Assembly: GCA_024710805.1 (NCBI GenBank)
Contig: JANJUB010000090.1
Location: 1-49,619 of the forward strand
Source: Fimbriimonadaceae bacterium
GTDB lineage: Bacteria > Armatimonadota > Fimbriimonadia > Fimbriimonadales > Fimbriimonadaceae
Direction: 5' to 3'
DNA length: 49,619 nt
In this document: piece after piece, positions 16,171 to 38,091 of the stretch
How the letters are laid out: each line of letters begins with the position of its first letter
Numbering within the stretch: the first letter of the stretch is position 1
The notes under the pieces: model-generated
Database searches by the model: none
The model's input: only the letters and a program-made list of their open reading frames with translations
Told to the model about the DNA's origin: nothing
Translations under genes and position numbers: made by a program

Positions 16171-16185
16171 TCACAACAAGAAAGT

Positions 16186-16225
16186 AACGGGCCCGATGCA
16201 GAAGCATCGGGCCCGTTCTTTTTTT
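16186..16225. terminator. Strong intrinsic terminator
   Basis: Perfect 14-bp stem AACGGGCCCGATGC/GCATCGGGCCCGTT with loop AGAA, followed by C and seven T. It terminates the 64-residue gene on the plus strand; the convergent M48 gene ends at 16232. Confidence 0.92.
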
Positions 16226-18181: not shown

Positions 18182-19672
18182 ATGGCATCTTATGTCGCGG
18201 TCGGCAGCGGACTCGCTGGGCTCGCCTTCGCCCTGAGGGTTGCGGAGTCTGGCCATCGAGTCACGGTTTTGACCAAGGCCCAGGTGGCCGAGGCCAACAC
18301 CAGCTATGCGCAAGGTGGAATTGCCGCCGCGGTTGGAGAGGCTGATTCTTGGAAGCTCCACGAGCAAGACACGTTGACCGCTGGGGCTGGACTCTGCGAT
18401 CCGGCCGCCGTTCGCTTCCTAGTGCAGCATGCTCCGGCAGCCATCGACTGGCTGAAGGCGGTCGGAACCCGATTCGATACCGAAGCGGATGGCGACCTCG
18501 CCCTGGGACGTGAGGGAGGGCATTCGCGCCATCGGATCGTGCATTATGCCGACCGTACCGGCTGGGAAATCGAGCGTGCAGTCGTTCAAGCCGTCCGTGA
18601 GCATCCGAGCATCGAGGTGATCGAACACGCGTTTGCGACGGCGTTGCTCGTTAAGGATGGCGTTTGCCATGGCGTCCGCGCGGTGGTGAGCGAACTTGGC
18701 GAGCGCACGTACCTTGCGCACGGAACGCTGATTGCCACCGGTGGTTGCGGGATGATGTATCAGCACACGACGAACCCGCGGGTCGCAACGGCGGACGGCA
18801 TCGGGCTAGCCTCGGATGCGGGTGCGGCGATCGCAGACATGGAGTTCATGCAGTTTCACCCGACGACCCTCTACCACCCTCAGCTGCGCAGCTTCCTGAT
18901 TACCGAAGCAGTGCGCGGAGCGGGGGGAACTCTGCGCAACCACGAGGGCCGGCGCTTCATGTACGACTACGATCCGCGCCTCGAACTTGCCCCGCGCGAC
19001 GTGGTCGCCCGGGCGATGGAAGCCGAAATGCAGCGGTTGGGAACGTGGTGCCTCTATCTCGACCTCACGCACCTCGACCCGGAGAAGATCGAGCACGAGT
19101 TTCCGACGATCTACGCCAAGCTGCTTGAGCTCGGCTTGGACATCCGGAAGGAGTGGATTCCGGTCGTGCCGGCCCAGCATTACTCCTGCGGAGGCATCAT
19201 CACCGACCTGGGTGGGCGCTCGAACCTCCGCGGCCTGTACGCCGCCGGAGAAGTGGCGCGAACTGGAGTTCACGGGGCCAATCGCTTGGCGAGCAACAGC
19301 TTGCTCGAGGCGGTTGTGTTCTCGCAGGCCGCCGCGCGTTCGGCTCTGGCGGATCCGGTGGAGCCGGCACCCATCGAGGTGGCCGAACCTCAGTCGGTGG
19401 CGGAATCGGAAGCGGTTCGAATCCGACACGCGTTGCAGAGCATCATGACGCAACGGGTGGCGGTCGTGCGCTCGAACGAAGGTCTCAAGCAGGCAGAGTC
19501 AACCGTCGAGGGTCTGATCGAGTCTTACCGTGATGGGTTGAAGGCACCGTTCAGCCAGTACGCGCTGGAAACCCGAAATCTGCTGCTGGCCGCGCGTCAC
19601 GTGGTTCAGGGGGCTCGAGCCCGCACCGAGAACGTCGGCCTCCACTACAACGTGGACCTAGAAAAAGAGTGA
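18182..19672 (+). CDS. nadB: L-aspartate oxidase
   Basis: FAD enzyme that oxidises L-aspartate to iminoaspartate for NAD synthesis. The 496-residue product has the dinucleotide-binding GSGLAGLAFALRVAE near the N-terminus, the succinate dehydrogenase/NadB blocks SYAQGGIAAAV, GREGGHSRHRIVH, TGGCGMMYQHTTNP, MEFMQFHPTTLY, AQHYSCGGI and GEVARTGVHGANRLASNSLLEAVVF, and a C-terminal helical domain. The HSRHRI and GREGGHS patterns distinguish NadB from SdhA/FrdA. nadA and nadC are not nearby. Its TGA lies inside the left arm of the following terminator. Confidence 0.96.
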   Translation: MASYVAVGSGLAGLAFALRVAESGHRVTVLTKAQVAEANTSYAQGGIAAAVGEADSWKLHEQDTLTAGAGLCDPAAVRFLVQHAPAAIDWLKAVGTRFDTEADGDLALGREGGHSRHRIVHYADRTGWEIERAVVQAVREHPSIEVIEHAFATALLVKDGVCHGVRAVVSELGERTYLAHGTLIATGGCGMMYQHTTNPRVATADGIGLASDAGAAIADMEFMQFHPTTLYHPQLRSFLITEAVRGAGGTLRNHEGRRFMYDYDPRLELAPRDVVARAMEAEMQRLGTWCLYLDLTHLDPEKIEHEFPTIYAKLLELGLDIRKEWIPVVPAQHYSCGGIITDLGGRSNLRGLYAAGEVARTGVHGANRLASNSLLEAVVFSQAAARSALADPVEPAPIEVAEPQSVAESEAVRIRHALQSIMTQRVAVVRSNEGLKQAESTVEGLIESYRDGLKAPFSQYALETRNLLLAARHVVQGARARTENVGLHYNVDLEKE

Positions 19673-19701
19673 CGCCGCTGGGAAGTCCCAGCGGCGTCAC
19701 T
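19668..19701. terminator. Intrinsic terminator between convergent genes
   Basis: Perfect 16-bp arms AGTGACGCCGCTGGGA/TCCCAGCGGCGTCACT with a 2-nt apex. On the minus strand the stem is followed by CTTTTTC, so it best terminates the protease gene; on the plus strand it overlaps the nadB stop codon and lacks a T-run. Confidence 0.85.
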
Positions 19702-19723
19702 TAGAACCCTCAACCCTGAAGGG

Positions 19724-33451: not shown

Positions 33452-33553
33452 CGACGCCGGGAATGATGCGTCGCTCAGCGAGTCGACTTACCGTTGCTGC
33501 CTTCCGGCCCTGGCGGGGTTCACCGATCGTCTGCCGCGCAGTTCCCGGCGGAG
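33452..33553 (-). ncRNA. ffs: Signal recognition particle RNA, small 4.5S type
   Basis: On the minus strand the core GGTGAACCCCGCCAGG, then GCCGGAAGGCAGCAACGG, contains the conserved domain IV with its GGAAGCAGC-like asymmetric loop and GNRA-type tip where Ffh binds. The ends pair: CGCCGGGAA (33550-33542) with TTCCCGGCG (33463-33455). About 100 nt, with no Alu domain, so it is the short form. It lies just upstream of dnaX-ybaB-recR, the same neighbourhood as scr in Bacillus. Exact ends are estimates. Confidence 0.93.
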
Positions 33554-35110: not shown

Positions 35111-35899
35111 TCAAACCTCTCGCTTGTCGAAGATCACCATGCCCGCAACCAGCAGGCCGGCCGAATACAGGATCGCGTAGAGAACGATGTAGATGAAATA
35201 CTTCTGCTCGTTCTCGATGACCTGGCCGGGGTTGATGATTGGGTTCTTGACGTCGTAGTTCGAGAACGCCGGCATCGCACCGGTCACGAACTTCGCCACG
35301 CTCTGCATGATCGGACTGGCGCCGGAGTTGCTGGCGATCGAAGAGTAGAGCGGGCTCAACACCGTTCCCACGCCCCAGATGCCGATCGACAAGAAGAAGT
35401 TGACCAGCGGGGTCGTAAAGGTCGAGAAGAAGATGCACACCGCAGCGAGCAGCATCATCTCGAGGAAGTAGAAGAACGGCTGGCGAGCCACTTCCAGCAG
35501 TCGCTCGGGCGATGGTTGCTGGAAGATGTAGAACAGCAAGACCATGACGCTCGACATCAGTACGATCATCAAGCCGAGAGCCAAAACGGCACCCATGAAC
35601 TTGCCGACCAAGAACTGCCAACGCATGACCGGCTTCGAGAGAATCGTGTAGATCGTTCGCCGCTCGATCTCGTTCGGGATCATGTAGATCGTCAAGATAA
35701 TCGCGATGAGCGCGCTGGTTCCACGAAGAACCGCGTACATCGTCGAGATCATCGTGGACTGCTCGGATCGAGCCGTCAACACGGAGAGCGACGGAATGAT
35801 GCTGAGCAGCAGCACGCCGATAAACAGAATGATGAGCAGCACGCGGCGGCGAATCGCTTCGCCCACCGTCGTGGTGGCAATGGCCATGATCGGTCTCAT
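35111..35899 (-). CDS. ABC-2-type transporter permease
   Basis: 262 residues with six hydrophobic segments, for example RRRVLLIILFIGVLLLSIIP and ALIAIILTIYMIPNEIE. The latter, with RRTIYTILSKPVMRWQFLVGKFMG, matches NosY/ABC-2 permeases, in which a short helix follows the first membrane span. The substrate is unknown; the family includes exporters and gliding-motility or copper-enzyme maturation transporters. The gene overlaps the ATPase stop by 4 nt. Confidence 0.88.
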   Translation of the reverse strand: MRPIMAIATTTVGEAIRRRVLLIILFIGVLLLSIIPSLSVLTARSEQSTMISTMYAVLRGTSALIAIILTIYMIPNEIERRTIYTILSKPVMRWQFLVGKFMGAVLALGLMIVLMSSVMVLLFYIFQQPSPERLLEVARQPFFYFLEMMLLAAVCIFFSTFTTPLVNFFLSIGIWGVGTVLSPLYSSIASNSGASPIMQSVAKFVTGAMPAFSNYDVKNPIINPGQVIENEQKYFIYIVLYAILYSAGLLVAGMVIFDKREV

Positions 35900-36861
35900 T
35901 GGGCACCTCCAACTTCGGCGGCAACCGCAGCCGGCTTCTTCTTGCTCGCATCATCGTCGCGGACCGTCTCGATGAAGAGGTCCTCGAGACGCTTTCGGCG
36001 AGGAGTGAGCGAGATGATCCGACCCTTGGTGCTGCGGATCGAGTCCACCACCGAGTTGGGATCTTGCTCGTCGGACATATCGACGATCAGGCGGCCATCG
36101 TGGAACGAGACCGTCGCATCGGTCGTGCCCTTGACTTGGTCGGCGATCTCCTTGGAGACGTCATCGGCGATGATCTCGATACGGCCGCCGCTCAGAAGAT
36201 CATCGAGCTTGCCCTGACGGACGATAATGCCCTTGTTGATGATCGCGACGCGGTCGCAGATTCGCTCGACTTCGCTGAGCTCGTGGCTCGAGATGAACAC
36301 CGTTCGACCCTCATCGCGGAAGTTAAGAATAAGGTCTCGGATTTCGATATGGGCGATCGGATCGAGGCCACCGGTCGGTTCATCGAGGAAGAGGAGCTTC
36401 GGGTCGTTGAGCAGCGATTGGGCGAGGCCGATGCGCTGCTGCATGCCCTTGGAGAATTGAGAAATCGTCTTCGACTTATCGGCGGCAAGGTTCACCCGCT
36501 CCAAGAGCTGGTTGAACAGGGCCTCGTCCTTGATGCCGAACAGCGCGCCATAGAACCGGAGGATCTCCAATCCGGTCATGTGCTCGTAGTAATACGGCCG
36601 CTCGGGGAGGTAGCTGATGATCCGGTGGACATCCATGTCGCCGATCTCTTTGCCGAGGACAAAGCCCTCGCCTCCCGTCGGGTAGATGATGCCAAGGAGC
36701 ATCTTGATCGTGGTCGTTTTGCCGGCACCATTAGGGCCGAGAAATCCGAAGATCTCGCCTTCCTCGACGGTCAGGTCGAGGTCTTGGACGACGTTGATAA
36801 GGCCATGAAGTCGAGACTTGTAGGTCTTGGTTAGTTTGCGTGTCTCAATGGCGGCGGCCAA
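35896..36861 (-). CDS. ABC transporter ATP-binding protein
   Basis: 321 residues. Walker A GFLGPNGAGKTTTIKML, Q-loop SYLPERPYYYEHMTG, signature FSKGMQQRIGLAQSLL, Walker B KLLFLDEPTGGLDP and switch His in VFISSHELSEVERICDRV are all intact. The SKGM signature is usual in the CcmA/NosF exporter group. About 80 C-terminal residues form an extra domain. The start is TTG at 36861 with GGGAGG 11 nt upstream and a TATACT box near 36897-36902. It heads the three-gene operon. Confidence 0.93.
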   Translation of the reverse strand: MAAAIETRKLTKTYKSRLHGLINVVQDLDLTVEEGEIFGFLGPNGAGKTTTIKMLLGIIYPTGGEGFVLGKEIGDMDVHRIISYLPERPYYYEHMTGLEILRFYGALFGIKDEALFNQLLERVNLAADKSKTISQFSKGMQQRIGLAQSLLNDPKLLFLDEPTGGLDPIAHIEIRDLILNFRDEGRTVFISSHELSEVERICDRVAIINKGIIVRQGKLDDLLSGGRIEIIADDVSKEIADQVKGTTDATVSFHDGRLIVDMSDEQDPNSVVDSIRSTKGRIISLTPRRKRLEDLFIETVRDDDASKKKPAAVAAEVGGAQ

Positions 36862-36990: not shown

Positions 36991-37019
36991 TTGGAATTTC
37001 ACAAAGGTGTGGCTATAAT
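36991..37019 (+). promoter_or_regulatory. Near-consensus sigma-70-type promoter
   Basis: TTGGAA, 17-nt spacer, TATAAT, preceded by A/T-tracts (AATTTTGAAAAATTGT) like an UP element. The strongest promoter I can see in the window; it reads into the candidate RNA, not directly into a gene. Confidence 0.85.
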
Positions 37020-37025
37020 GCTCTT

Positions 37026-37142
37026 CGTCAACGACCTTGAGCCCTCGGAGATCTTAGGGACCAATGAGAAGGGCAAAAGTCGTTTGGCCGAGCCTTAGCG
37101 GGAATGCTCTTTGCTCTCCTTTCAGCGTTCCCGCATTTTTTT
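37026..37142 (+). ncRNA. Candidate structured small RNA or leader, unknown class
   Basis: About 117 nt bounded by a consensus promoter and an intrinsic terminator, with no credible coding sequence. Visible pairing: AACGAC (37030-37035) with GTCGTT (37079-37084), GCCC (37041) with GGGC (37071), and an alternative CTCGG (37044) with CCGAG (37088). I cannot match it to 6S, tmRNA, RNase P, 5S or a riboswitch I know. The next gene starts 38 nt beyond the T-run, so it could be an attenuated leader or an independent sRNA. Ends are predicted. Together with the promoter it accounts for most of the 36862-37179 gap. Confidence 0.65.
37098..37142 (+). terminator. Intrinsic terminator of the candidate RNA
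   Basis: GCGGGAATGCT/AGCGTTCCCGC with one G-T pair, 15-nt loop, followed by A and seven T (37136-37142). Confidence 0.88.
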
Positions 37143-37179: not shown

Positions 37180-38091
37180 ATGATTGCCTGGCTCGCGATC
37201 CTCGCGTTTCCTCAGAGTGAGCCTGCAAAGCTCGACCTTAAGCCCATCGCAACGGTCCGCCACCCGGGTGCGAGCGAGATGAGCGGCATCGTCCAGAGTC
37301 GCCGGTATCCGGGCGTCTTCTGGGTTCACAACGACTCGGGCGATAAGGCGCGCATTTTTCCGATCAAGCTGAGCGGCGACGTGATCAAGCCTCCTTATGA
37401 AGGCGGCTTCTGGGTGAACGCTCCCGAAGAAGGCAAACAGGAATGGCCAGGGATCGAGATTGCCAACGCCACCAACGTGGACTGGGAAGACGTCGCGCTC
37501 GATGGCGACACGCTGTATCTCGCCGACGTGGGCAACAACGGCAACGCCCGCCGCGATTTAGGGGTGTACGTGGTTCCAGAGCCCAACCCCGAGGCCACCG
37601 GAGTCGTTCGGGCGCTGAAGTTCTTGCCCATCCGCTATCCGGACCAAGGTGCGTATCCCCCGAAGGATTGGTTCTTCGATTGTGAGGCGATCTTCATTCA
37701 TCGGGGCCGCGTGCACTTGGTGACCAAGCATCGCAAGAACGGCAACTTCGCCATTCCGGACGTCGGCGCGAAGCTGTACCGGCTGGATTCCCAACACACC
37801 GATCGGCCGAACTTGTTGCGCAAGCTGGACGAGAAGAGCGACCTCGGAGGGTGGGTGACCGCGGCCGACCTTTCTCCCAATGGGCGCACGCTCGCCGTTC
37901 TGGTCCAAGCCCCGGTCGCTTCGGTCTGGTTCTTCGACATCTCGCGGTCCGGCGAAAAGATGCTCAGCGGCCCGAGTCGTCGGCTCATGCTGAGCGGGGC
38001 CAAGCAAGCCGAAGCCATCGCGTTCATCGACGACCGAACCGTGGTTGTGACCAACGAACAACGGGACGTGTTCCGGATCGCCGTGCCCTAG
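37180..38091 (+). CDS. Probable exported beta-propeller-like protein, unrecognised
   Basis: 303 residues. A short hydrophobic N-terminus (MIAWLAILAFPQS) may be a signal peptide. The body has propeller-like strands (GVFWVHNDSGDKARIFPI, DWEDVALDGDTLYLADVGNN, WVTAADLSPNGRTLAVLV), with WEDVALDG and DCEAIF conserved-looking acidic patches as in calcium-binding esterase-like phytase/SdiA-regulated folds. I cannot assign an activity. It begins 38 nt after the terminator of the candidate RNA and is followed 33 nt later by a GNAT gene. Confidence 0.7.
   Translation: MIAWLAILAFPQSEPAKLDLKPIATVRHPGASEMSGIVQSRRYPGVFWVHNDSGDKARIFPIKLSGDVIKPPYEGGFWVNAPEEGKQEWPGIEIANATNVDWEDVALDGDTLYLADVGNNGNARRDLGVYVVPEPNPEATGVVRALKFLPIRYPDQGAYPPKDWFFDCEAIFIHRGRVHLVTKHRKNGNFAIPDVGAKLYRLDSQHTDRPNLLRKLDEKSDLGGWVTAADLSPNGRTLAVLVQAPVASVWFFDISRSGEKMLSGPSRRLMLSGAKQAEAIAFIDDRTVVVTNEQRDVFRIAVP

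Follow-up and report, generated by a model that had tools for sequence, protein, structure and literature searches.

The short trans-acting sRNA alpha-r14/NfeR1 of rhizobia silences mRNAs with an ultraconserved, unpaired anti-Shine-Dalgarno motif that is carried in three hairpins, while its stems vary (PMC10746234). The multicopy sRNA LhrC of Listeria monocytogenes has three redundant CU-rich sites, one each in a loop, in a single strand and in the terminator loop (PMC4132741). Yfr1 and Yfr10 occur nearly phylum-wide across cyanobacteria and present one conserved motif in two architectures, as a single strand in Yfr1 and in a stem loop in Yfr10 (PMC6778093). For Armatimonadota, no study of small regulatory RNAs was found in the literature searched, and the loop motif described below was found in no paper of the open-licence literature.

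The DNA under study is a 49,619-nt stretch (hereafter, the window) from a Fimbriimonadaceae bacterium, in which an original prediction had placed a small RNA gene that stands alone between a promoter and an intrinsic terminator of its own. Comparison with related genomes argues that the gene is real and conserved; conservation and compensatory changes, whose absence would have spoken against an RNA, were both found. The RNA occurs in two architectures, type A (that of the window RNA) and type B, which share a terminator hairpin with a CU-rich loop. By analogy, the RNA plausibly works like NfeR1, LhrC and Yfr1/Yfr10, yet forms a separate family. It shares with NfeR1 the short length, the conserved unpaired motif and the variable stems. 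NfeR1, however, displays CCUCCUCCC in each of three hairpins; the window RNA, from another phylum, has two stem domains and a single CU loop, with CUCUCCUUUC in the terminator loop, and its pairing is predicted. Type B is like LhrC in combining a CU-rich single strand with a CU-rich terminator loop, but LhrC differs in motif (CUCCC...UUUU), sequence and phylum, and type A exposes one CU-rich site. As with Yfr1/Yfr10, to which the CU-loop RNA is unrelated in sequence, one motif is kept in two architectures, but here it lies in the terminator loop in both.

Results

Predicted gene structure

The features of the locus are collected in Table 1. On a scripted re-read, the promoter TTGGAA-17-TATAAT of the original prediction proved correct base for base, and the 11-bp stem and the seven T that it had described were both located as listed. 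The promoter match was 10/12, with one observed versus 0.3 expected from shuffling, and many type A relatives have a TATAAT-like hexamer at about the same distance. The predicted transcript is approximately 116 nt long, in good agreement with the ~117 nt without a credible reading frame that had been proposed, and a scripted check of the window RNA found no start codon that opens a frame within it. A simple terminator scan of the window made no call on the hairpin preceding the T7 tract, because its 15-nt loop (15~17 nt among relatives) exceeds the 8-nt limit of the scan.

Table 1. Predicted features of the RNA gene and its context
Feature	Position	Strand	Basis
ABC transporter ATPase gene, divergent from the RNA (context only)	35896-36861	-	neighbour conservation
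-35 element TTGGAA	36991-36996	+	scripted re-read, promoter scan
-10 element TATAAT	37014-37019	+	scripted re-read, promoter scan
5' domain, two helices P1 and P2	37027-37088	+	MFE fold, covariation in 16 relatives, combined fold z
Outer helix P1, GUCAACGAC with GUCGUUUGGC	37027-37035 with 37079-37088	+	MFE fold, covariation
Inner helix P2, GCCCU with AGGGC	37041-37045 with 37070-37074	+	MFE fold, covariation
Linker, 5' domain to terminator hairpin	37089-37097	+	sequence, fold
Terminator hairpin, covarying stem	37098-37134	+	DNA search, alignment, covariation, covariance model
Hairpin arms GCGGGAATGCT and AGCGTTCCCGC	37098-37108 and 37124-37134	+	11 bp including one U.G
CU-rich loop CTTTGCTCTCCTTTC (conserved form CUUUGCUCUCCUUUC, nearly invariant)	37109-37123	+	alignment of relatives
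T7 tract of the intrinsic terminator, preceded by a single A after the hairpin	37136-37142	+	scripted re-read
Type B RNAs, widespread in the phylum	loci L060, L064, L070, L075, L078, L080-L092, L160, L168, L170		

Taken by itself, the RNA sequence of the window folded with an energy only mildly better than that of shuffled sequences (z -1.6), so the case for an RNA rests on comparison among genomes. The loop core CUCUCCUUUC is unpaired in the computed folds. Pairing of the loop with the 16S locus, the SRP RNA and the RNA's own 5' domain was also looked for, and the longest complements were 7, 5 and 5 nt, respectively. A bacterial small SRP RNA (RF00169, 57.6 bits) lies on the minus strand at 33452-33550 of the window, three genes from the sRNA.

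Conservation of the terminator hairpin

A DNA search of 41 relatives showed that the whole RNA is kept in the sister species (96%), and that its last ~50 nt, the terminator hairpin, match in many other genera. In an alignment of hairpin sequences from 20 genomes, the loop columns were nearly invariant and lay between covarying arms; this oversized terminator loop, overlooked in the original prediction, is the most conserved part of the RNA. Standard pairs made up 97% of the stem, and 9 of its 10 pairs had double-sided changes. Double-change cells numbered 24 against 4 expected, a level reached by 0 of 500 shuffles, and controls with slid partners were only 38~56% paired.

A covariance model of the hairpin, R1, was searched across genomes of the order and the phylum. 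It matched 81 of the 113 genomes of the order; those of the window's family usually have a single copy, and those of another family up to six. Phylum-wide, 99 of 291 genomes matched at E<=0.001, and beyond the order, loops or leaders that are clearly related occur in four families (f12, f13, f14 and f19). Ordinary terminators account for some of the low-scoring matches. The low matches L093, L094 and L096-L098, from which the CU loop is absent, were set aside as chance or ordinary terminators, as were two in the window itself (16184-16223 and 19662-19703). Viral contigs scanned with an 18-mer pattern gave no match.

The window's family can do without the RNA, for some of its members lack it. 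Some loci of this family that fail the hairpin search nevertheless retain a diverged RNA. At one syntenic type A locus (L132 in genome G020), the stem is retained and the loop is altered to CTGCATGCACACGCTCAG.

Two architectures

Type A comprises the window RNA and RNAs of families f1, f3 and f5, usually in one copy. Its 5' domain covaries in both helices among 16 relatives: P1 is paired in 77 of 80 cells with 25 double changes, and P2 in 74 of 80 with 23, counts that are favoured by the placement of P1 and P2 by hand. This covariation was reached by none of 2000 shuffles. Independently of this placement, type A 5' domains folded better than dinucleotide shuffles, with a mean z of -1.8 and a Stouffer z of -7.9, uncorrected for relatedness. 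The original prediction had offered two mutually exclusive folds. The one with AACGAC/GTCGTT and GCCC/GGGC is supported by the relatives, but the alternative pairing CTCGG/CCGAG is not conserved. Both halves of the latter are present together in just 3 of the 23 sequences, among them those of the window and of its sister species, and the sequences compared thus lend no support to a conserved two-state switch.

Type B, of ~70 nt, consists of a 24-nt single strand containing CGAGUUCACCUUCCUUCC, followed by the CU-loop hairpin. The single-stranded leader, GAGUUCACCUUCCUUCC, is a second exposed CU-rich stretch besides the loop, and leader and hairpin co-occur in distant families of the phylum. Three loci of one genus (L164, L165 and L166) retain the type B leader and have lost the CUCUCCUUUC CU loop. 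By eye, many type B loci are preceded by boxes such as CCTGAAGAAC and GCCGATAAT, which resemble an ECF sigma promoter. Near-identical copy sets with the loop GATCCTCCTTTC and common upstream flanks occur within one genome (L062/L063 and L067/L068/L069), and could be a dispersed repeat carrying the hairpin.

Genomic neighbourhood

In 27 of the 29 type A loci, the upstream neighbour is an ABC-transporter ATPase gene on the opposite strand. The gene that starts at 37180, in contrast, has homologues in the sister species only, that is, within the genus. In some families type B RNAs are next to parB- and yajQ-like genes, and in one other family next to a gene for a macB-like permease (names assigned by eye from protein sequences). 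Since the upstream neighbour is conserved, the downstream gene is not and type B sits beside other genes, the RNA is a free-standing gene and not a leader.

The original prediction had kept an attenuator or riboswitch as its alternative, and the terminator does end 38 nt ahead of the start codon (ATG at 37180). That the RNA is a cis-acting leader of this gene is nonetheless very improbable, given that homologues of the gene are confined to the sister species whereas the RNA spans the order, and that the alternative fold is not conserved. The conserved divergent neighbourhood could suggest an antisense or cis-acting regulator of the ABC-transporter operon. This too we consider quite unlikely: the RNA points away from the ABC gene and stays clear of its coding region, other genes flank the type B copies, and the ABC gene is also present at loci that lack the RNA. 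At loci of the window's family that fail the hairpin search, it is mostly other sequence that follows the ABC gene.

Comparison with known families

Rfam covariance models gave no match at the gathering cut-off to the window RNA or to type A and type B loci, and the 6S model (RF00013) did not match the window RNA. The covariance searches called for in the original prediction thus bore out its statement that the RNA fits no known class, and the new model built from relatives gave the matches described above. The RNA family is new to Rfam. In favour of a diverged housekeeping RNA such as 6S is that no 6S match was obtained in those genomes of the window's family that were sampled. But no Rfam model matched at a useful score, genome G026 has a 6S RNA alongside type A and type B, and the 6S shape is not that of a 116-nt RNA built of two stem domains, which leaves this explanation scarcely credible. 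A separate 6S RNA was matched in G025 as well as in G026. As to 6S itself, 13 genomes of the window's family (G000-G012) gave no Rfam match while other families of the order did; 6S is lost or strongly diverged in the window's family.

Discussion

The RNA has the features of a trans-encoded sRNA: its own predicted promoter and terminator, no conserved ORF, no conserved downstream linkage, and a conserved structure with compensatory changes. Its loop core is complementary to GAAAGGAGAG, which is Shine-Dalgarno-like, and shares CUCCUU with the 16S 3' end of this genome, GGATCACCTCCTTAAGG (tail GGAUCACCUCCUUAAGG). The unpaired CU-rich motif is, in other words, complementary to Shine-Dalgarno sequences. 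Summed over 41 genomes, GAAAGGAGA occurs 3~11 nt before ATG 158 times versus 44 in the reversed control (~3.6-fold), an excess expected of any Shine-Dalgarno sequence. Hfq-family genes were found in the genomes of 20 out of 21 relatives. The complementarity, the GAAAGGAGA excess and Hfq together favour an sRNA that covers ribosome-binding sites. We accordingly hold, with moderate confidence, that the putative transcript acts in trans as an sRNA, pairing through its CU-rich loop with the Shine-Dalgarno regions of putative targets and lowering their translation.

In the mechanism proposed, a vegetative-type promoter would drive an RNA of ~116 nt that ends at its own intrinsic terminator. The 5' domain would form a stable two-helix stem-loop, and the 3' terminator hairpin would display the CU-rich loop of 15~17 nt, CUUUGCUCUCCUUUC, held open as a seed. 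In several mRNAs, this loop may pair with a purine-rich Shine-Dalgarno region of the GAAAGGAG type and, by covering the ribosome-binding site, would reduce translation. Hfq is probably bound at the U-tail.

A crude target test showed no sign of specificity. On crude translation starts, 25 of 100 and 42 of 100 composition-shuffled loops did as well as the real one, and no common target family was found among 18 candidate target ORFs. The full loop complement, with up to one mismatch, had no match in the window's genome besides the RNA itself; sought as one perfect target, it gave only the RNA loci and scattered one-mismatch sites. The loop could instead be a protein-binding site, with the RNA as a sponge or scaffold that regulates a CU-binding RNA-binding protein and not mRNAs by pairing. 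Its failure to outdo shuffled loops would fit such a site, as would its almost letter-perfect conservation phylum-wide, which is stricter than pairing with varied mRNAs would need. We regard protein binding as unlikely, however, for the copies vary their flanks yet retain CUCCUUU, including variants like GATCCTCCTTTC, as a Shine-Dalgarno-pairing seed should, and in type B there is a CU-rich single strand besides the loop.

A broader form of the pairing reading is that the RNAs are a phylum-wide, ancient family of global translation regulators, in which one ancestral hairpin was joined to two 5' domains and two promoter classes. The terminator loop, plus the 5' tail in type B, would then mimic the anti-Shine-Dalgarno tail of 16S rRNA. 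We offer this tentatively and with considerable doubt.

The CU-loop RNAs provide a defined, covariation-backed RNA family in the under-studied phylum Armatimonadota, with a loop that gives a simple target prediction. Because two RNA architectures have retained the one seed loop, they may serve as a natural experiment, like that of Yfr1/Yfr10, but within an intrinsic terminator.
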